Virus record (IMG/VR): IMGVR_UViG_3300033144_002186
Span: 1 to 27,834 of that record
Origin: a virus
Reading direction: 5' to 3' (one strand)
Length of the DNA stretch: 27,834 nucleotides
Each line of letters begins with the position of its first letter. The first letter of the stretch is position 1. Under the pieces are notes generated by a model. It saw only the letters and a list, made by a program, of their open reading frames with translations, was not told the origin of the DNA and did not search any database. The translations under genes and the position numbers were made by a program. This document shows, one piece after another, positions 3,653 to 27,834 of the stretch.

Positions 3653-6600
3653 TATTTAGCACCTTTCATTCTATAAATAATTGTTATATCATTAATTTCA
3701 AATGAAGCTGGAACAGACCCACTGGCTGAAAATTTCAAAGCAAAGGAATATATATTATTAGATTCTGATGAAGCATTTGGCGTTAAGGTTGCCTGATGCC
3801 AATAGTCACTAACGGTAGTATCTAATAAATTAGATGCAAAATTATCGCCATCTTTAAATATTAAACCAAAAGTCCCTGCACCATTTATATCATACTTAAC
3901 CTGTACATTAGCAGCCACGGTATCAGTCTTATAAGTAACATATACCTTATAAATCTTTTTTCTTACAGCTGGTTTGCCAAAATCAATATCCATAGTTTGA
4001 TAAGCAAAATTTGATGTTGCTGTAGGCAATGAATCCCAAGTCTTAATAGTACAATCAGTATCGTCTATCCAAGTAATCTTTTCATCATCATTAAGAGAGA
4101 AATTGGTCATAGCAGTCGTTACCGAAATTTTACCAGCCCCACTCGTCCATGCAAAAAATGTTAAGTCAAATAAATAAATATCATTATTATTATTCTTAAA
4201 AATTAATTCCCTAGATTTTGGAATATATGAAATCATTGCATTGCCGCCAGATGGGTCAGTCGTGCTATGAGTAACAAATCCTTCCCAAGTGACTTCATTA
4301 ATTAATTTCAATCCTTCTTTTGTAAGAAGGTCATTCACTTTTTGCCCATCATAAAGATAAACACCATGTTTATTAAACCAAGCAATTCCAATATCGGTTT
4401 TACACACATGATGAGGTTGTAAAACGCCTTTATTATGGAAAGTGTCTTCAAGAAATTCTATATTTTCAGCAACATTTATTATATATAAACTCTCTTGTTT
4501 AAATTGCAATATTCTATCTGCGTAAGCTTCAAGCTTAATAATACTTTCACCGTCCCTTACAGCTACATCTATAAATCCAGAATCAGATGGAAATGTATCA
4601 AATCTACTTACTTCACTTTTTAATATTCTATCTGGATAATGTTTTCCATCTTGCTTTACATTGCCTATATAAATTCTTCTTCCTTGCAATACGGCAGTTT
4701 TATATTGGGCACTTAATGAAGATGTAGTAGTTTTAAAACCATTTATACTTCTATATGTATCTATATAATTTGCCCCTCTAGGAGTAATCCCCTTTACTAT
4801 TGAATTAGTTATATTTGTAGGGACATTTGGTGCTGCTAATGTTGCGGAACTAGCACAATCGGTCAAATCATATGATATTGTATCTGTATCGGGAGTCCAT
4901 CTCCATCCTTTTTCTATAAAATCAACCTCACCAACAAGAAAATAATTATCATTACTTTCCTCTTTAAAATAATATCTGCAACCAGTAACTCTTTTATTAA
5001 AACAATATGTACTAACCGTAGGAAGACCTACCATATCCAAAGAATCTATATATACTTGAAATTCAAGAAGGAGAGGTCCACCAATGATTGCAAGTTTATT
5101 CACATTTGTTGAGCTTGTCCCGTCACCATCTAATAAAGTTGGTAAAGATTCTTGATTCCCGTCGTATAAAAGAGTATTGTGAAATGTATAAACTCCTTCT
5201 TGCCATCCATCAATATTTCCGTCAGCAGACATTTCAGCGACACCCCCAAGAAATACCGAAGGAGAAGTTGTACCTGAACACATTAATCTAACAGCTAGGC
5301 TATCAGCAGCTCTTTCTGCGTCCCAAGCAGTGGCACCTTCTCCATTATAATCATAGTTAATAGAACTTAAAATGAATAGATTCCAACAATCTGGAGTAAC
5401 ATCTGATGAAGAAAATACCCATTTTCTCTCACCCTCTAAAGTCATACTACCATAGCTTGCTGAATCTAACTGATAAGCCTCAAATTCAATTGTTTCATCA
5501 ATCTTTGCAAGGTTTGAAGATGAAATGAATAGTGGGACAATAATACTTTGTGATTCATCTTGCCTAAAAGTATCTCCAGTCCACCAAAATACATCATATG
5601 ATGGAGGGGTTTTACCTGCTGAGCCTGATAAAGCAACAGTCCTTTTCCCAAAAATAGGTTGAGGCATAGAATATTCTTGACTCTTACCAAAGTCAGTACC
5701 TCCACCACCAGCATAATTAAGATGGTTCCAATTACCCGATTCACCAGTCCCAATAAGATTCTTATGCTGTATTCCAACTCGTAAATTACAAGTCCCATTA
5801 TTTGCAGTAAGATCGTTATTTATACTACAAGCTATAATTTGTAAATTACCAATATATTCCGAGTCTGGTGAATTTGGTCCTGCATCGGTAATCCCTCCCT
5901 GTGAAGCCACGCAAGTATTCTCCCCAACAAATGGCGTTGATATAAGACAGATACCAGGGTCAGAAGCCCCTCCATTGTCTGTGCCTACTATTTCTTGACT
6001 ACCAGAAAACCATAAAGGGGTTGGTGAAGTATCATCATTGCTACTTGTCCTTAATGTATTAAATCTATGGTCCTCTATATAGCCAAACCATTTGCTTGCT
6101 CCATTGAAATTAGCATCAGAAACTCTTAGTACACCATCAGCTGAATAAAAACATGGGTCAATACCAGTCGTTCCCATATCAATTCGATTTGCATGCCACC
6201 CATCGCTATCATAACCATGTATATGTTGGTCATTATCATATAAAAATAATAATGTTTCAGCATTCTCTCCCTCATCAAATTGCCTATCAGACTTCATAGA
6301 AAAAAGCCCCTTATGCTTTGTCGTATCTAAAGAATCTGTTTTGCAATAAATTTCATATTCTGAAGTATTGTCAGTATCAGCACCAAGAGGGAAAGCAGAA
6401 ACCAAAGCAATATTGTCTCCATAAGTTGTATTATCGGCTGTACCAGAAGGGTCGTATTGCATTATTTCTCTTTCATTCCCCGAATTCGTACCAGCAGTAA
6501 TGCTTATCCATAAACCAGTATAGTAATCTTGTTTAAGGTGGCTACCTGCATCAAGTCTTACCCATGTTCCTCCTGACACTGCAAGATTATTTTGACAAGT

Positions 6601-6777
6601 ATCAATATATTTCCCGCTAACTCCTGAACTAGAACCCCCAATTAAAGTTAATTTACCAACTGCTGAGATAGCAGCATCTGTTAACAAAGGGGATTCTGTT
6701 ATAGCAATGTCTCTTGGGTCAGAACTTGAATTTATCCCTCCATGAAAATGCTTTAATTCTAATGTGCTTTTAGCCAC
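3652..6777 (-). CDS. Large virion protein, possibly P22 gp10-like tail/stabilisation protein
   Basis: This 1041-residue protein uses a GTG start (CAC at 6775-6777 on the plus strand). The start overlaps the peptidase stop by one base (TAGTG). The N-terminus reads MAKSTLELKHFHGGINSSSD, the kind of opening found in podovirus proteins that plug or stabilise the portal channel. The middle, around residues 715-815, has the pattern of a beta-propeller tail protein. A segment naming a DNA-like register (FDTFPSDSGFIDVAV) is followed by a ruler-like ILQFKQESLYIINV strand and then a GIAWFNKHGVYLYDG strand. The last 150 residues look like a beta-sandwich. There is no signal peptide or membrane segment. 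I am sure it is a real virion gene. The gp10-like assignment rests on pattern resemblance and would need a profile search. The alternative is a generic tail hub or adaptor. Confidence 0.9.
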   Translation of the reverse strand: MAKSTLELKHFHGGINSSSDPRDIAITESPLLTDAAISAVGKLTLIGGSSSGVSGKYIDTCQNNLAVSGGTWVRLDAGSHLKQDYYTGLWISITAGTNSGNEREIMQYDPSGTADNTTYGDNIALVSAFPLGADTDNTSEYEIYCKTDSLDTTKHKGLFSMKSDRQFDEGENAETLLFLYDNDQHIHGYDSDGWHANRIDMGTTGIDPCFYSADGVLRVSDANFNGASKWFGYIEDHRFNTLRTSSNDDTSPTPLWFSGSQEIVGTDNGGASDPGICLISTPFVGENTCVASQGGITDAGPNSPDSEYIGNLQIIACSINNDLTANNGTCNLRVGIQHKNLIGTGESGNWNHLNYAGGGGTDFGKSQEYSMPQPIFGKRTVALSGSAGKTPPSYDVFWWTGDTFRQDESQSIIVPLFISSSNLAKIDETIEFEAYQLDSASYGSMTLEGERKWVFSSSDVTPDCWNLFILSSINYDYNGEGATAWDAERAADSLAVRLMCSGTTSPSVFLGGVAEMSADGNIDGWQEGVYTFHNTLLYDGNQESLPTLLDGDGTSSTNVNKLAIIGGPLLLEFQVYIDSLDMVGLPTVSTYCFNKRVTGCRYYFKEESNDNYFLVGEVDFIEKGWRWTPDTDTISYDLTDCASSATLAAPNVPTNITNSIVKGITPRGANYIDTYRSINGFKTTTSSLSAQYKTAVLQGRRIYIGNVKQDGKHYPDRILKSEVSRFDTFPSDSGFIDVAVRDGESIIKLEAYADRILQFKQESLYIINVAENIEFLEDTFHNKGVLQPHHVCKTDIGIAWFNKHGVYLYDGQKVNDLLTKEGLKLINEVTWEGFVTHSTTDPSGGNAMISYIPKSRELIFKNNNNDIYLFDLTFFAWTSGAGKISVTTAMTNFSLNDDEKITWIDDTDCTIKTWDSLPTATSNFAYQTMDIDFGKPAVRKKIYKVYVTYKTDTVAANVQVKYDINGAGTFGLIFKDGDNFASNLLDTTVSDYWHQATLTPNASSESNNIYSFALKFSASGSVPASFEINDITIIYRMKGAK

Positions 6778-7157
6778 TAATCAAGTATCTCCACATGAAC
6801 TAAATCATCAAATGAATTATCTTTAATTTCTCCATCACTATCCCAGTCGCCACCCCAACGAATAGTAACTCCAAGCTGTTGTCCAATACCACGAACCATA
6901 CCACCCATATAATGAAACCTTTCTCTGTCATTCCAGTCTATGGGATATGGGGCTAAATCAACAGCCTTACCTTCCATATGCTTTGAATATTTAACCTTCG
7001 TTGCCCCTTTTTCAAGGAGTTCAGCCTGTCTTTCTTTAGAACGGACACCTTCAATGATAGTCACATCCATTATTTTAATTAATGCATTTAATACATTTAC
7101 TAATTTAGCGTTTACGCCCTTTAGTCTTTCCTTGCTTCGTTTTCCGAATCTTGGCAT
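6777..7157 (-). CDS. Endolysin, M15-family L-alanyl-D-glutamate-type peptidase
   Basis: This is a 126-residue metallopeptidase that should cut peptidoglycan cross-bridges at lysis. The M15 signature is complete. S58-K-H60 with G63 and D67 gives the first two zinc ligands (SKHxxGKAVD). D118-L-V-H121-V-E gives the catalytic aspartate and the third zinc ligand, by comparison with the phage T5 endopeptidase (H66, D73, D130, H133). An RSKERQAELLEKG helix at residues 39-51 is also typical. The length is that of a single-domain lysin without a cell-wall-binding domain or signal peptide, so export needs a holin. Holin-like genes lie just upstream. The start ATG lies inside the 38-codon ORF at 7105-7221. 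The ribosome site is the purine run GGGAAAGAAA. Confidence 0.93.
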   Translation of the reverse strand: MPRFGKRSKERLKGVNAKLVNVLNALIKIMDVTIIEGVRSKERQAELLEKGATKVKYSKHMEGKAVDLAPYPIDWNDRERFHYMGGMVRGIGQQLGVTIRWGGDWDSDGEIKDNSFDDLVHVEILD

Positions 7158-7478: not shown

Positions 7479-7536
7479 AATAATATCTGATGATGCCGAA
7501 CAGGAAGGGAGGAGGAGAAAACATCCAGAGTCGCAT
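7459..7536 (-). CDS. Hydrophobic 25-residue micro-ORF
   Basis: This ORF encodes MRLWMFSPPPFLFGIIRYYL and five further residues. An almost ideal ribosome site, AAAGGAG, lies seven bases before the ATG at 7536. It is made by the last codons of the preceding 48-codon gene, whose stop is one base before the ATG (TAAAATG junction). The second half is hydrophobic with two arginines. The site and ATG sit in a small hairpin with GAGTC/GACTC arms (7528-7532 and 7542-7546). Translation may therefore depend on ribosomes arriving from upstream. The peptide could be a lysis accessory or simply a reinitiation product. The translation signals are better evidence than the sequence itself. Confidence 0.45.
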   Translation of the reverse strand: MRLWMFSPPPFLFGIIRYYLIRCVL

Positions 7537-20285: not shown

Positions 20286-22502
20286 TTATTTCTTATTATC
20301 CTTTTCCTGCAAGTTCTTTTTATCGAAATCATCTTTTAGGATTTTTCTGTAATATTTTTGTTGAGCTTCAGTTTCAAGCGTGTCTTTTTCTGTTTGCTTG
20401 GAACCAACATCTACCTTATGTTTTATCCCTGCCTGTACTAATTGACGTTCAAGAGTTTCAATTGTTCCCTCTTTATCTTGGGCATCTTTTTCAAGATTTT
20501 CAACTTGTTGTTGCAACTGAGAATAGAGAGACTTTCTTTCAATAATTGCTTCTTTACCTCTTACATCAGTTTCTGCCAACATTGCTATATCATCAATTAA
20601 TCCAGCTTGGAACCATTTGAAATATTCTTCAACCAAAGCCCATCTATTAATAGGCATAACTGCTCCAGCTACAATTCTAACATCGAATCTTGATGATGCA
20701 TAATCATTCCAAAGACTTATTTCATCACCATAATCATTGTATACTGGAATATTAATTCGTGTTTGTCTTTCCTCATAATCATCACCAGCTGTATTTGGTT
20801 GAACTATTCTAAAAACTTTATCTATTTTATAATGAGTTTGAGCATGCTCTTTAAAAACAGTCCCAAGATGTTCAAGGGAAGGCTCTAAAACACTATTCAT
20901 CCAAGCCTTAATTCTTCTTGTTCCAAATTCATCATTCGCAAGAAGTCCTCTATATGTCTCAGCTTGTTCTTGTACAAACCCCATCATTGCACTAGGAATA
21001 CCAGCAATATATTCCATATCATTCTTCCCTTCCTGCGTAACAGTATAGAAAGCATTATTTATAGCGGCTGGAAGCACTGGCGTCGGAGGTGTAAATCCAG
21101 GTCGGTACTTTAATAATGCACCTGGAGCGGACGAATATTGTTCCCACTCTTCTTCTGGGACACTTCCTTCTTCATATAGCCACCTCAAATTAGAAGCAAG
21201 GTTGGCATTATGAAGCATAACTTGATGAGCTTTATTTATTTCTTGTTGTTTCCCAACCATAGGAGTTACTGCACTCATAGGAAAGGGGGTTCCTGTATAC
21301 ATATAAGGAATAGGGACGATAGGATAGTCAGCAATTGGTAGAATCATTTGATATAAAGTAACATCTTTTCCTATTGTGCAAGTAACCTTTACTCTCCTTT
21401 CGTGAAACATAGAAGCATCAATAACAGTTTCAGCAATATCCTTGTTCTCCATAAGGATTTCATATTCTTTTTCAGTAACGATTTTTTGCTCAGTCCTATT
21501 AAGTTCCTCTTGAGTGGCATAATCAATCTCAGCCTTTTTCCTATTTACTCCACTATCATGAGATTCTTGAGCTTTCTTTATTTCAAGGTCAGCTCTTTCC
21601 TCTATCATTTCCCCAGTTGCCAATGCTTGCTCTACTTGTATAATTTTCTCTTTTGTAGCAACTGCAGATTCTTCAATAAATGATTTGAGTTGTTTTTCAC
21701 CAATTTCTTTAACATATTTAATGTCTTTTGGTGTAGGGTAAACATTAATGGTTAAATTATAAAAAGGGACTCTTACTTTCTCATAACACTCATGGTAATC
21801 AAGAATATCATCCTTTTCCCCATACTCATCAACTGCAGTTACAATATCTTCTGGGATTATAGCATCAGCTTCACCCCTATCAGCCTGTGAAAAGGATAGT
21901 AGAGAGTTATCGGTAGAAGATTTCTTAATTTTCCTCTTATATTGAGGAAACATCACATTTAATTGTCTTCTAGTAAGTCTCTTTTTTACAAGAATGAAAG
22001 AAGCATCTCTTAAAAGAAAATCTCTACTCATGGGGTCTGGATAAACATCATAAGGGTCTATCCTTTTAAATATTACATCCCCTCTTCCATTATCCATATC
22101 GGTATCTACATCAACAAAGAAATAACCAACGCCCTTTGCTAGACAATCTAGAATAACACTACCATATACAGCCTTTCCGTTTGAGATTCCCCAACAATAA
22201 TCAGATATATCACTATGGATTTGTGCAAGATTTGTGTCGCTTCCCTCTACAGCAACTGCTTTCCATCTAGGATTGTTTGCTGTAACAAAATATTTCATTA
22301 TTTCAATAATAGGAGTAATTCTATTGATTTGAAATGTAGGCATACCAGATTCTTCTAAAGCATTTTTCTCTTCTCTAGTCAATTGCTCATTAAGATAAAA
22401 ATCATATCCTCTTTGGCTATCAGATTGCCATTTCATTCTCTCTTCAGAGTTCACAGACTTCCATAAGGAATGAATTCTTTCTGATTCTTTAATTTTAGCC
22501 AT
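20286..22502 (-). CDS. Portal protein
   Basis: This 738-residue protein should form the dodecameric portal at one vertex and nucleate head assembly. It starts three bases after the terminase stop. The N-terminal region has W-x-SDSQRGYDFYLNEQLT and FQINRITPIIEIMKYFVTAN, which are the helix-and-loop pattern of P22-type podovirus portals. KRIDPYDVYPDP at about residues 145-157 and a QEQAETYRGLLANDE region further on are typical. The length matches the P22 portal class (about 725) and not the shorter HK97 class. The C-terminus is a coiled coil at about residues 665-738 that may form a barrel extending into the head. The role is supported by motif and order. Confidence 0.95.
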   Translation of the reverse strand: MAKIKESERIHSLWKSVNSEERMKWQSDSQRGYDFYLNEQLTREEKNALEESGMPTFQINRITPIIEIMKYFVTANNPRWKAVAVEGSDTNLAQIHSDISDYCWGISNGKAVYGSVILDCLAKGVGYFFVDVDTDMDNGRGDVIFKRIDPYDVYPDPMSRDFLLRDASFILVKKRLTRRQLNVMFPQYKRKIKKSSTDNSLLSFSQADRGEADAIIPEDIVTAVDEYGEKDDILDYHECYEKVRVPFYNLTINVYPTPKDIKYVKEIGEKQLKSFIEESAVATKEKIIQVEQALATGEMIEERADLEIKKAQESHDSGVNRKKAEIDYATQEELNRTEQKIVTEKEYEILMENKDIAETVIDASMFHERRVKVTCTIGKDVTLYQMILPIADYPIVPIPYMYTGTPFPMSAVTPMVGKQQEINKAHQVMLHNANLASNLRWLYEEGSVPEEEWEQYSSAPGALLKYRPGFTPPTPVLPAAINNAFYTVTQEGKNDMEYIAGIPSAMMGFVQEQAETYRGLLANDEFGTRRIKAWMNSVLEPSLEHLGTVFKEHAQTHYKIDKVFRIVQPNTAGDDYEERQTRINIPVYNDYGDEISLWNDYASSRFDVRIVAGAVMPINRWALVEEYFKWFQAGLIDDIAMLAETDVRGKEAIIERKSLYSQLQQQVENLEKDAQDKEGTIETLERQLVQAGIKHKVDVGSKQTEKDTLETEAQQKYYRKILKDDFDKKNLQEKDNKK

Positions 22503-22505
22503 TTT

Positions 22506-24098
22506 TTATGCCACAACCCACGGTCTTGCCTTCCTTTTTGGTTTTACCCATCTTCTTTCGCCTTTATTTTCGGTTTTTTTCATATTTGGAGGAAATGCAT
22601 GCAGTAGTGCGTAAAAAAGAGTTTCAATTGTATCATCATGAGCCATTTTTGGTCCAAAAGTAACGATTTCATGCTCCAAGTCATACATTTTATCCCTTAA
22701 ATATACCGTTCCAGTACTAAACCTACCAGATAAACCTGAATATATCTTATTTCTTTTATCCATACGTCCTGGAGGCTTTTCTGGGACGACAGCTATGCTA
22801 AATTTGTTCTCAATCCTTCTTCTTTCATTAAGAGATTGAAAAACAGACCTATTCATAGCAACATCCTCAACAGTACTGGATGTGCAATGATATTTTTGGT
22901 GAAGTTCCATTATATAGTCGACAACACCCTTTTTCCCTATTAATTTATCTGAGCTATCTCTTGGACCAACAGTTGGGATACTTCTATGCCTTTCATACTC
23001 TAATACATAAACATTATTATCTGGAGTAACGGCAACAACCATTATAACGGAGAAATCTGATGTCTTTGTATCTATATCAGTTGCTGGGTCACAACCTATA
23101 AATGTATTAACGGGTATATCTTCACCATCCATTACTAAATAATTACAATCATCATCACCTCTCTTATAATAGCCCTCCCAATACTTAATATAGTTTCTAC
23201 CAAATAATGCCTCATCTTCATTCTGTACTTCTAGTTCATATTCTTGGTAATAACCATTTGAACGACCAGCCTGCTCGTAGTCTCTCTTAATTATATCGAG
23301 TTTCTCTCTTGGCATATATGTATCCCACAAAACTCCACCCTCCATTTCTGGTTGAGTAGATTTATAGTGGATAACATCCCAAGTATAATCATTTTTATTT
23401 TCAGCTTTTAAATAACCATCTAAAATATTCTGACATAAGCTATCAAAGTGAACGGGTGTTCCAGCGAATATCAATCTTCCATCAACATCAAGAGCTGGTT
23501 TAACACCATTATATACAATATTCTTAATTTTTTCTCTAGCATCAAGAGTAACGGTATTCGTTTCACTCTCAGTATCATCAAGGGCAACAATATCATATCT
23601 TTTACCAAGATAGTTTTCACCACGAACACTAGAAAGATTTGAACGACTTATTAATTTAGCATTTGTATTTGTTACTATATCAGTCTCTGTCCATTTTGTC
23701 CCGACAACATCGCCAAAATAGTATTTAATCATGTCATTTGTTTCGAAATGCTGTTTAAGATATTGTAGGTTAAGAATTGATTTTCTATGGTTATCAGAAA
23801 CCCAAGCCATAAACAAAAGGTCATCAGATTCCTTAAATAATATCTTATGCATAAGAAATGTCTTAAACAATTGTGTTTTAGCTGAACTTCTAGGGAGAAT
23901 CAAAGCTAAGGATTTCGTGGTATTCTCTAGAAGAGCATCAGCTATTTCATAGTGAAATGGAGGGGATTTGGATTTGCCAAAATCTCCAGGCAAAAACAGT
24001 TTGCCAAAAGCTATAAGAGAATGTTTAGTTAATTCTAAGACTTCTTCTGCCTTAGATACATCTCTTAAATTAATGTTTACTTCTTTCTTCTCTTCCAT
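22506..24098 (-). CDS. terL: Terminase large subunit (DNA packaging ATPase/nuclease)
   Basis: This 530-residue motor protein translocates phage DNA into the prohead and cuts it. The ATPase part has a variant Walker A, L68-P-R-S-S-A-K74-T75, and a Walker B V171-A-L-D-D175. A coupling segment follows (FAGTP, 211-215). The nuclease part has three acidic clusters: D337 in G-C-D-P, E411 in V-E-D-V-A-M-N-R, and D488/D489 in H-D-D-T. The full length and both domains are present. The ATG overlaps the last codons of the metallophosphoesterase gene by 22 bases, and the portal gene follows three bases later. The Walker A lacks the usual glycines (PRGxxK), a notable variation. The function is certain in kind. 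Confidence 0.96.
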   Translation of the reverse strand: MEEKKEVNINLRDVSKAEEVLELTKHSLIAFGKLFLPGDFGKSKSPPFHYEIADALLENTTKSLALILPRSSAKTQLFKTFLMHKILFKESDDLLFMAWVSDNHRKSILNLQYLKQHFETNDMIKYYFGDVVGTKWTETDIVTNTNAKLISRSNLSSVRGENYLGKRYDIVALDDTESETNTVTLDAREKIKNIVYNGVKPALDVDGRLIFAGTPVHFDSLCQNILDGYLKAENKNDYTWDVIHYKSTQPEMEGGVLWDTYMPREKLDIIKRDYEQAGRSNGYYQEYELEVQNEDEALFGRNYIKYWEGYYKRGDDDCNYLVMDGEDIPVNTFIGCDPATDIDTKTSDFSVIMVVAVTPDNNVYVLEYERHRSIPTVGPRDSSDKLIGKKGVVDYIMELHQKYHCTSSTVEDVAMNRSVFQSLNERRRIENKFSIAVVPEKPPGRMDKRNKIYSGLSGRFSTGTVYLRDKMYDLEHEIVTFGPKMAHDDTIETLFYALLHAFPPNMKKTENKGERRWVKPKRKARPWVVA

Positions 24099-25114
24099 GC
24101 TAAGTAATCACAACCCTCTTCTGGGTCGAAAATTGTAGTAATTAATCTATTATCATTATCATTATACTGGGGGTCAATAATTGTCACTGGGCATTTGAAT
24201 ACATTTTGGTCAGGCAAGCCTTTCTCAGCAGCGTATCTATCTATCTCCTTATAAGAAGCAATTCTTAATGCATGGGATATTAATCCAGTAGCAGGACACT
24301 TCAATACTTGATAGCCACTTACATGAGTGTGACCAGCAGTTAATATATGGTCTCTCCAACCCATTTGTATTGCCTTAACTAATCCATGAGCTGTATTCCA
24401 CATTGAATGTCCTGCGAAAGTATGTCGTGCATTCAACCTCACTTGTTTCTTATTTGGGAAGATTAAATTCATCCTTACCCCATTATTATTAAATATACCA
24501 TTCTTTTGGCTAGTCATCCATTCTAATGGGTCTCCACTTCCAGTCCAAGCATCATGATTCCCACCAACTAAATATAACCAATCAACTTTTGTTATAAAAT
24601 GTTCAGTTAGTCGCCAAGATTCTTTAGCTGAAGTAGATTGTTCGCCATATAATCTAGCTAATCTTCCAATCCAATTATTTTGATTATCGCCTATATTCCC
24701 CCCAAACATACCTTCAGCATTTTGTATTAAATCTGCATGCATCAATAATTGAGCAATATTAGTACCATCATCATCTATATGAGGGTCACCAAAATGAGCA
24801 ATTCCTATTGGACCATCTATATTAATTTTAACATTAAGTAATATTTCATCAGTTGTGGCTTTGCTCTTTAAATCAAACTTTCTTATTCTGTTTTCAATTA
24901 AATCGCCTATGGGTTCATTCCCAGTTGAATAGTCTTCAACAGAAAAATCATCTTCTATCTTTTGCTGCTTTATTATCCCCTTCCATTTCCTAATTGTTCT
25001 TGGATGCACCCCCATAACCTCAGCGGCATATCTAACTGTGTATCGTTCAGCTAATTCCGCTCCCTTCTTATAGTCATTTATATCAAATTTAGATTGATTC
25101 TTCTTTGTGCCCAT
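24077..25114 (-). CDS. Helix-turn-helix/metallophosphoesterase fusion protein
   Basis: This 345-residue protein lies between the small and large terminase genes and overlaps both. Residues about 18-50 form a helix-turn-helix (AERYTVRYAAEVMGVHPRTI then RKWKG) like those of small terminases and resolvases. From residue 104 it has the calcineurin-like phosphoesterase set: D110-x-H112 (GDPHID), G142-D143-N, G185-N186-H187-D188, H236 (AGHS) and G261-H262-T-H264 (GHTH). All metal-binding motifs are present, so activity on phosphodiester or phosphomonoester bonds is expected. The substrate is unknown. Candidates are DNA ends produced by terminase or a nucleotide second messenger. A ribosome site GGAGA precedes the ATG. 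The enzyme fold is certain; the role in packaging is inferred. Confidence 0.93.
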   Translation of the reverse strand: MGTKKNQSKFDINDYKKGAELAERYTVRYAAEVMGVHPRTIRKWKGIIKQQKIEDDFSVEDYSTGNEPIGDLIENRIRKFDLKSKATTDEILLNVKINIDGPIGIAHFGDPHIDDDGTNIAQLLMHADLIQNAEGMFGGNIGDNQNNWIGRLARLYGEQSTSAKESWRLTEHFITKVDWLYLVGGNHDAWTGSGDPLEWMTSQKNGIFNNNGVRMNLIFPNKKQVRLNARHTFAGHSMWNTAHGLVKAIQMGWRDHILTAGHTHVSGYQVLKCPATGLISHALRIASYKEIDRYAAEKGLPDQNVFKCPVTIIDPQYNDNDNRLITTIFDPEEGCDYLAWKRRKK

Positions 25115-26169: not shown

Positions 26170-26745
26170 CTAGTCAATATTAAAAAACCCTACATATACC
26201 AATCTCCCATCATCTTTCCCAGTACCCCAACTCTTAAATGGGAAACGACTGTGAAAGTAGTTTGATGAGAAAATAAGAAGCCTGTTTTTCTTCATTTCAC
26301 ATATATCATAACGCTTCCACTTCTTTAAATTGTAAGAATCGTGAGTCAGAAGCCTATTATTCTCAGCAACATCATCATAAGGAAAAGATTTTCCATGTGC
26401 ATAATGAGAAAAGAAAGCTGTACCATATTTACAATCAGTATCAGGTGCATCTGACATATAAAATATCCACGCATAACTAGAACCCATTAACGCATCAGTG
26501 TGAATTCGTATTCTGTTGTCTTTATACTTGGTATATAATCTCAAAAAATTATGAGTTACAGTGATTTCAGAACCAAAGGCATTTTCAACAACAGGAACAA
26601 TTTCGTTGTAAAAAATTTTAGGTGCCTCAGAAATATAGAATTCATAATCCCCAGATTCCACAACAGAAAAAGAAGCATTATCCCTGACTCGTCTTTCTAA
26701 AACTGAAAAATTCTCAGATACATTATCAAATACAAATTTCTTCAT
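26170..26745 (-). CDS. 2OG-Fe(II) oxygenase (prolyl-4-hydroxylase-like)
   Basis: This 191-residue protein fits a 2-oxoglutarate/Fe(II) dioxygenase jelly-roll. The iron triad is H82-x-D84 (RIHTD) and H165 (NYFHSRFPF). R181 (GRLVYVGFF) is placed to bind the 2-oxoglutarate carboxylate. The spacing between the HxD and the distal histidine is 81 residues, usual for this fold, and the length is that of a minimal domain. It opens MKKFVFDNVSENFSVLERRV, with no signal peptide. Marine phages carry many such genes, proposed to modify proteins or DNA bases; the substrate here is unknown. It is separated from the operon start by a 113-base regulatory gap and lies beside the divergence point. The ribosome site is weak. 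Confidence 0.85.
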   Translation of the reverse strand: MKKFVFDNVSENFSVLERRVRDNASFSVVESGDYEFYISEAPKIFYNEIVPVVENAFGSEITVTHNFLRLYTKYKDNRIRIHTDALMGSSYAWIFYMSDAPDTDCKYGTAFFSHYAHGKSFPYDDVAENNRLLTHDSYNLKKWKRYDICEMKKNRLLIFSSNYFHSRFPFKSWGTGKDDGRLVYVGFFNID

Positions 26746-27034: not shown

Positions 27035-27040
27035 TGTAGT

Positions 27041-27099
27041 GGGAGCGAAAGCTCTCGGTTCTCGGAGATACTCCCCCGCTCTGTCACTCAAGGGGGTAG
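27041..27099 (+). other. Double hairpin after the 62-codon gene
   Basis: GGGAGC/GCTCTC with a GAAA loop (27041-27056) is followed by CTCCCCC/GGGGGTAG (27071-27099, with one bulged T). No U-tract follows, so termination by the intrinsic route is doubtful. RNA protection, or the entry structure of the proposed RNA, fits better. Confidence 0.5.
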
Positions 27100-27188
27100 G
27101 TTAGCACTTATATCACACACTATACTAATATAGTCAAGATTTCAAATAACATGGGCAATAACATACAAATAACAAGGAGTCTAATAGC

Positions 27189-27311
27189 TTGAGTATACAT
27201 TTTGCACCTAAGGAGAAGATATGGTATGTTCTTCTTAATGGTACGTCAGTAGTCATGTTCTATAGTATATTCCGCACACAGTGTGTGGAGTACATGGAGC
27301 AACGCTCTTGA
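27189..27311 (+). CDS. 40-residue micro-protein with TTG start
   Basis: The ORF begins at a TTG, with AAGGAG nine bases upstream, and no in-frame ATG lies before it. It encodes MSIHFAPKEKIWYVLLNGTS followed by VVMFYSIFRTQCVEYMEQRS. The order is aromatic strand, NGT turn, second strand with F-Y-S, then a helix with EYMEQ. It resembles a widespread type of tiny phage protein with a YVxxNGxxVxxFxTxxECxxYI pattern. That pattern is stronger evidence than length. No function is known. It lies in the hairpin-dense region, so the RNA could be bifunctional. Confidence 0.5.
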   Translation: MSIHFAPKEKIWYVLLNGTSVVMFYSIFRTQCVEYMEQRS

Positions 27312-27414
27312 CCTCGTCACCTGGGTATGTGAGAAACTACCCAAAGATTTTAGTAATACAGTAGGTATAGCAACGCCATATACAGGGCAACATGATTACA
27401 TGGAGCATGTATAG
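27283..27414 (+). CDS. Micro-ORF 2 of the overlapping ladder (GTG start)
   Basis: This frame is one step on from micro-ORF 1 and overlaps it by 29 bases. From a GTG it gives 43 residues beginning MWSTWSNALDLVTWVCEKLP and ending YTGQHDYMEHV. No ribosome site is seen before the GTG. The composition looks protein-like (LPKDFSNTVGIATPYTG), but a 43-codon open frame is expected by chance fairly often, so confidence is low. Confidence 0.22.
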   Translation: MWSTWSNALDLVTWVCEKLPKDFSNTVGIATPYTGQHDYMEHV

Positions 27415-27511
27415 GGTTCATCAATTGATGACGCAAGCGGGAGATATCCTTGAGTTTAATGTACTATCGGGTACGCCTACTGTTAGACCAGTGGCTATAA
27501 ACTATCTGTGA
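27392..27511 (+). CDS. Micro-ORF 3 of the overlapping ladder
   Basis: Again one frame on, overlapping the previous ORF by 23 bases. From the ATG at 27392 it encodes 39 residues opening MITWSMYRVHQLMTQAGDIL and including EFNVLSGTPTVRPVAINYL. An alternative ATG at 27407 overlaps the previous stop. No good ribosome site precedes either start. The second half has a strand-like VLSGTP-VRPVAINYL pattern. It is either a real micro-gene or chance. Confidence 0.25.
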   Translation: MITWSMYRVHQLMTQAGDILEFNVLSGTPTVRPVAINYL

Positions 27512-27520
27512 GTAGGTCAT

Positions 27521-27638
27521 ATGACTGAATCGGATAAACTCTGAACTTGACGAAGTTCTTAATGCGGGGACACACGTCCGCAAGGTAGCCCATCGCTTAT
27601 ATAGTAAACAGGTGTCTTCTCTATGTCGCCTCGTCTAG
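27521..27638 (+). CDS. Micro-ORF 4 with possible +1 frameshift at CUC-UGA
   Basis: An ATG at 27521, five bases after AGGT, opens MTESDKL and then meets TGA at 27542. If one base is skipped there, the frame goes on as ELDEVLNAGTHVRKVAHRLY and ends at the TAG of 27636-27638, giving about 38 residues. The CUC-UGA arrangement is like the CUU-UGA site of the release-factor-2 gene prfB. An upstream ribosome-like stimulator is not clear. A one-base sequencing or assembly error, or no gene at all, are the alternatives. The continued frame also forms hairpins (27543-27558 and 27563-27582). Confidence 0.25.
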
Positions 27639-27681
27639 TGGGTTCAGCGAGCCTGTATAAATATTAAAACAATTGAACCCA
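27639..27681 (+). promoter_or_regulatory. 8-bp inverted repeat around a TATAAATA box
   Basis: TGGGTTCA (27639-27646) and TGAACCCA (27674-27681) are perfect complements with 27 bases between them. Inside lies TATAAATA (27656-27663), which is the consensus -10 of T4-type late promoters. The next gene's ATG is about 50 bases downstream. It could be a phage-specific promoter with a stem that affects it, or an RNA stem before the gene. Confidence 0.4.
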
Positions 27682-27712
27682 ACATATTTAATTAATAATA
27701 AGGAGAATAATC

Positions 27713-27834
27713 ATGAGCAGACCATATTCATTTGACTTCAAACCTTCTACTGATGGTCATAAAGATATTGAAACATCTCCTATCAATCGACCTATGGTTT
27801 ATTGTCCTAAGATCAAAGACATTATATCAGCTGC
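27713..27834 (+). CDS. Plus-strand protein, N-terminus only (cut by window edge)
   Basis: An ATG at 27713 has AAGGAG seven bases before it, a clear ribosome site. The frame stays open to the right edge for 40 codons, starting MSRPYSFDFKPSTDGHKDIE and including NRPMVYCPKIKDIISA. The visible part is polar with no signal peptide. Only the first tenth or so of a gene may be visible, so the family cannot be judged. It probably begins an early or replication segment running to the right. Confidence 0.75.
   Translation, partial: MSRPYSFDFKPSTDGHKDIETSPINRPMVYCPKIKDIISA

Follow-up and report, generated by a model that had tools for sequence, protein, structure and literature searches.

What does the hairpin-dense stretch at positions 27035-27681 of a 27,834-base IMG/VR virus record (the whole of this DNA is hereafter referred to as the window) encode? 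A sequence-only reading had interpreted it as a possible single, ornate phage RNA of the size class of GOLLD and ROOL, lying in a gap without a strong ORF. The contig carries leftward structural genes, among them those for terminase (22506-24098), portal (20286-22502) and endolysin (6777-7157), and its first rightward genes are found at the right end, where the stretch comes 3' of a 62-codon gene. The source is a tailed phage, and the RNA cassette described below belongs to its rightward operon. The window ends about 120 nt inside the next gene of this operon, which is thereby truncated (27713-27834, + strand). Two further products may be mentioned here: a 191-aa protein encoded beside the packaging genes (26170-26745, - strand), with weak similarity to 2OG-Fe(II) oxygenases (Pfam, below the cut-off), and a phosphoesterase-like protein with an N-terminal HTH encoded between the terminase subunits (24077-25114, - strand). 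The latter exhibits 46% identity to proteins of the Pseudomonas phages FBPa42 and IME307, which may be taken as a weak hint at the host. No match to the region was found among cultured phages, and the same was true for the RNA of L004, the nearest relative of the window.

Comparison with relatives shows the stretch to be a composite, made up of a leader, a promoter-like motif, a 40-codon gene, one further hairpin and an RNA cassette of 330 nt. The leader (27038-27110, + strand), conserved in L004, L049 and L061, comprises the GAAA tetraloop hairpin that had been noticed from the sequence (GGGAGC-GAAA-GCTCTC, near 27041) and a second hairpin, CCCC-GCTCTRTCACTCAA-GGGG. The first of these has another sequence in L004 with pairing retained, and the leader fold is unremarkable (z -0.26). 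The 11-base motif ATAACRTGGGY follows at 27146-27156 (+ strand; ATAACATGGGC in the window), and most relatives have a copy at the corresponding position; many possess a second, divergent one about 500-1100 bases off, upstream of the structural genes. Two copies were observed in L009, L013, L016, L021-L024, L046, L048, L051, L052 and L062, and both end in the same base (C or T) within each two-copy genome. The motif is a likely phage promoter element or regulator site. Neither a sigma-70 promoter nor an intrinsic terminator was found in the region, and a search of 13 records for a T7-type RNA polymerase, run without a positive control, found none. The motif also accounts for one of the two long-range pairings proposed to close the stretch: ATGGGC is conserved without its partner GCCCAT because it is part of ATAACRTGGGY, being kept where the 3' side reads AATCCC. 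The other closure, ACTATA/TATAGT, is equally unconserved, since ACTATA is missing there in L004.

The 40-codon gene (MSIHFAPKEKIWYVLLNGTSVVMFYSIFRTQCVEYMEQRS; 27189-27311, + strand) has a TTG start preceded by an AAGGAG ribosome-binding site, the start being ATG in L049, L015 and L017. Its protein is conserved in nine relatives (L004, L009, L013, L015, L017, L022, L049, L061 and L066; consensus MSLHFAP.EKLW.V.L.GT..VLF.S......C...MEQR) and had no PHROG or Pfam match. Thus, about one fifth of the supposedly ORF-poor gap is coding. A hairpin, GGGTA..TACCC followed by AAAGATTTT (27323-27351, + strand), then forms the left border of the exchangeable stretch, and about 330 nt without a gene separate this tail from the next gene at 27713. 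The same hairpin with AAAGATTT, its stems differing in sequence, is present at the joints of L004, L009, L013 and L022; copies with changing stems were located at 7528, 7234 and 6602 in L013 and at 7482 and 6587 in L022 (all - strand), in addition to 27323-27351 in the window. A statistical test of the stem plus AAAGATTT tail revealed no enrichment; the recurring element is a possible processing or border signal.

The RNA cassette itself occupies 27357-27686 (+ strand, 330 nt) and contains no ORF of at least 60 codons. L013, a phage whose terminase is 83% identical to that of the window, lacks it at the joint that corresponds exactly. Positions 27189-27356 and 27687-27833 have their counterparts side by side in L013, with the left breakpoint at 27356, and the homologue of the 27713 gene lies there directly 3' of the hairpin. 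Since the flanks adjoin in L013, the 330 nt were either gained by insertion or lost at a single joint. Three parts were distinguished within or around the cassette. The first, module W1 (27358-27483, + strand), is a multibranched domain closed by nine pairs (ACAGTAGGT/GCCTACTGT); none of 200 shuffles was as stable (z -4.15, with borders picked after the fold had been seen), and no relatives were found elsewhere in IMG/VR. The second, module M, is a four-way junction considered below. The third is a set of trailing hairpins (27600-27690, + strand), including TGGGTTCA/TGAACCCA (27639-27646/27674-27681), with unexceptional stability (z -1.5) and no homologues.

Other features put forward from the sequence were partly confirmed. 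The 14-base palindrome is present (TCATCAATTGATGA, 27418-27431), and the stretch is less AT-rich than its surroundings (GC 42.3%, versus 36.7% for the window). Several short inverted repeats were found, namely six pairs of at least 7 nt within 60 nt. Folding energy gave a divided answer: taken as a whole, the stretch departs only mildly from shuffled sequence (z -2.65, from 20 shuffles only), whereas domains cut at their natural borders stand out. For 27313-27700, z was -1.21, with 11 of 100 shuffles equally good, and when the entire window was scanned in 130-nt tiles, those of this region showed no peak; stability was therefore rejected as sole evidence.

Module M (27491-27594, + strand, 104 nt; covariation on A3) consists of five helices: P1 (27493-27497/27586-27590), P2 (27503-27508/27531-27536), P3 (27515-27518/27523-27526), P4 (27543-27548/27553-27558) and P5 (27563-27568/27577-27582). 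Its relatives were found in L004/L005, L048/L062 and L046/L052, L004 and L005 being two contigs of the same phage (99.99% identical), and the terminases of L046, L048 and L052 are 51% identical to that of the window. Pairing is kept in 95.2% of cells across four distinct sequences. Compensatory changes among homologues, a check proposed at the outset, are indeed present, with ten pairs altered on both sides and still paired in four of the five helices. The covariation score of 0.531, obtained for a structure taken from the window's own single-sequence minimum-energy fold, compares with 0.283 for shuffled and at most 0.191 for slid controls, an excess of compensatory change characteristic of structured RNA; the sample comprises only four distinct sequences in two groups and hence few independent events. 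The stability of M (z -2.65) was calculated with borders picked after the fold had been seen. Indels of 1, 2 and 5 nt occur within M, which argues against a protein frame. Six pairs exchanged Watson-Crick for G-U pairing and one for A-C, so the + strand is likely the RNA, although part of this bias stems from the choice of structure. A covariance model, R1, detected M in seven records, at this locus only and in no unrelated genome, and none of five pattern matches in bacterial genomes passed R1. Taken together, these comparisons show that the + strand of M is selected to keep the four-way-junction fold, and strongly support M as a new, covariance-supported RNA.

The cassette might act in cis, as a leader controlling the next gene or as a put-like antitermination element for a long operon; the put RNA of HK022 acts in cis on polymerase and suppresses termination. 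Its position would suit this role: it lies early in the rightward operon, preceded by a promoter-like motif and followed by a gene that has a ribosome-binding site. So would the lack of a visible terminator in the region. Nevertheless, a protein gene intervenes between motif and RNA, the same downstream gene does without such an RNA in L013, and M precedes different neighbours in its relatives: the 27713 gene in the window, another gene in L004 and, in L062, a further RNA (X, described below) about 40 nt off. M is therefore not tied to one downstream gene. A cis role remains the main rival explanation, weakened because the neighbours of M vary and the L013 gene dispenses with M, and we consider it rather unlikely.

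Comparison of close relatives revealed how such cassettes change. At the joint shared by L009 and L013, with flanks 97% and 99% identical, L013 carries a gene and L009 a piece of 140 nt in which ATGGGGAT/ATCCCCAT form the closing stem (z -1.99). L046 and L062 share 442 nt at 99.5% identity, then differ in unlike pieces of about 130 nt, and are again 96% identical over 582 nt that take in M and the start of X. The piece in L046 is a well-folding closed domain (z -3.02), and that in L062 contains an RNA, N, of 85 nt with two hairpins. Copies of N in distant phages share 92-94% identity, and in L071 the element is found by itself between two genes. RNA N was located in L004 (2900-2992) and, on the - strand, in L071 (409-490), L062 (4173-4257), L048 (482-566) and L051 (5891-5973), and looks as if it had been recently exchanged. 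A 140-nt stretch of L022, considered as a further cassette, folds no better than shuffled sequence. These alignments show sister phages replacing cassettes as units at this joint and beside it.

The larger discovery of the analysis is RNA X in the sister phages. About 1 kb or less beyond the place of M, L009 and L013 carry GOLLD (171 and 174 bits, with an Rfam covariance-model cut-off for membership of 150 bits); in L013 it was located at 5837-6251 (- strand), in the operon where other members of the group carry X. X is an RNA of about 470 nt found at the place of GOLLD in ten records and closed by GATGC/GCATC, with sites in L063 (4253-4719, +), L066 (7346-7820, +), L062 (3523-3990, -), L064 (320-786, -), L067 (5368-5836, +) and L070 (8948-9414, -). 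Among its 117 pairs, 97.6% of cells are paired and 30 pairs changed on both sides (six distinct sequences). Covariation reached 0.370, compared with at most 0.083 when slid, a comparison that leans towards the structure since it was derived from the same alignment. Nevertheless, a model of the 5' third of X found the divergent members of L022 (6402-6530, -; E 2e-12) and L004 (4247-4377, +; E 3e-7), which had been left unused. Exchanges to G-U number 27 and those to A-C three. No match for X was found in Rfam, only its tRNA-Met matched in cultured phages, and no description of M, N or X was found in the open-licence PMC literature. In L063, L066, L068 and L070 a tRNA-Met gene ends 0-6 nt before the start of X. 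These alignments show that X has a conserved RNA fold and that in relatives the operon also contains tRNA-Met with either GOLLD or X. In L004 the order is M, tRNA-Met (about 750 nt after M) and X, and X is therefore predicted just past the end of the window contig, behind a tRNA-Met and within about 1.5 kb of 27834.

The proximity of M and X raises a second alternative, that M is a detachable 5' domain of X and the window RNA one half of a split large RNA whose remainder would follow beyond the contig. In L062 and L046 about 40 nt separate the end of M from X, the nearest relative has both, and GOLLD likewise has a less conserved, variable 5' part (PMC12286853). However, two genes and a tRNA separate M from X in L004, X occurs without M in L049, L017, L061 and L066, and L051 combines X and N with no M, making a split RNA improbable. 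Still less credible is an element acting as DNA, such as a replication origin or a site for packaging or recombination, with dyads that function in the DNA: the region is dyad-rich, lies near divergent transcription units and is a site of cassette exchange, but Watson-Crick pairs give way to G-U and hardly to A-C (6:1 in M, 27:3 in X), marking one strand as RNA, and the sequence here can be entirely unlike between close relatives. Finally, one ornate RNA of about 650 nt across 27035-27681, suggested by size, phage origin and the GOLLD of sister phages, was rejected as scarcely tenable, given the conserved protein gene inside, the lost closing pairs, the separate domains in a row and the absence of an Rfam match. 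What holds of that interpretation is selected RNA structure: the sequence-only reading found a real structured-RNA locus and drew its borders and unity wrongly. Its instinct was close, since large ornate RNAs lie about 1 kb or less downstream in the same operon of sister phages, a real GOLLD in L009 and L013 and a new RNA in twelve other loci.

With some reserve, we therefore favor reading 27357-27686 as the occupant of an operon slot for exchangeable, co-transcribed and probably trans-acting structured non-coding RNA. The cassette, which follows the 40-codon gene in the rightward operon and precedes the gene at 27713, would be transcribed together with the 40-codon gene from ATAACRTGGGY, and its domains would be either excised or active inside a longer transcript. 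The functional product would be the folded RNA itself, which would act in trans on the host's translation, RNA turnover or defence machinery, as is assumed for other tRNA-linked phage RNAs. Several results weigh against this slot-cassette reading: as a whole the cassette is hardly more stable than shuffled sequence, M is represented by four distinct sequences in two groups, W1 and the trailing hairpins lack homologues, and the region yielded neither a sigma-70 promoter nor an intrinsic terminator. A broader proposal can be offered only tentatively, as we think it more doubtful: that a dedicated slot swaps structured RNAs as units beside a constant large RNA, with M, N and X as new classes and X in place of GOLLD, in an RNA arms race.

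The alternation of GOLLD, the unrelated X and small folded RNAs within one operon provides natural comparisons, and features common to phages with GOLLD and phages with X should point to a shared job. GOLLD and ROOL form RNA cages, the job of which is, to our knowledge, not known. Should RNA cassettes truly be exchanged in the manner of anti-defence genes, phages would take over hosts by RNA more widely than is known at present.

How does the locus compare with known RNA classes? Rfam covariance models, including those for GOLLD and ROOL, gave nothing convincing in the window even at E up to 10, and GOLLD (RF02032) had no match there at the gathering threshold either. Like GOLLD, the cassette is phage-borne and structured, and it may be tRNA-linked, as suggested by the tRNA-Met about 750 nt after M in L004; in L009 and L013 GOLLD has a nearby place in the same operon; the cassette differs in being 330 nt of separate domains placed before the GOLLD position. 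ROOL (RF03087) was matched neither in the window nor in 45 related records, the latter searched without a positive control. Both GOLLD and ROOL, the latter likewise a large phage RNA, occur near tRNA islands (PMC12286853), and the setting found here, a phage operon with a tRNA and a large RNA in relatives, resembles theirs. Group I and II introns and HEARO had no Rfam match, and in L013 the genes on either side are intact and distinct. No tRNA was detected in the window by ARAGORN or Rfam, the four-way junction of M being unrecognized as one. The tRNA cluster of phage T4 offers a possible parallel in its small stable RNAs C and D, structured non-tRNAs that are made with the phage tRNAs and are not known to have a function; the present cassettes differ in being exchanged between close relatives. 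The sole CRISPR-DR53 match, at chance level, falls in the 62-codon gene outside the cassette (Rfam). RNA anti-CRISPRs (Racrs) are short RNAs that phages encode in compact operons to block the defence of the host, which they do by mimicking CRISPR repeats (PMC10651486). M, a four-way junction of 100 nt, had no convincing match among the CRISPR repeat models of Rfam. Racrs set a precedent for phage small RNAs used against defence (PMC10651486) and, if the proposed exchange of RNA cassettes is true, the slot would resemble gene exchange in a defence or counter-defence hotspot.
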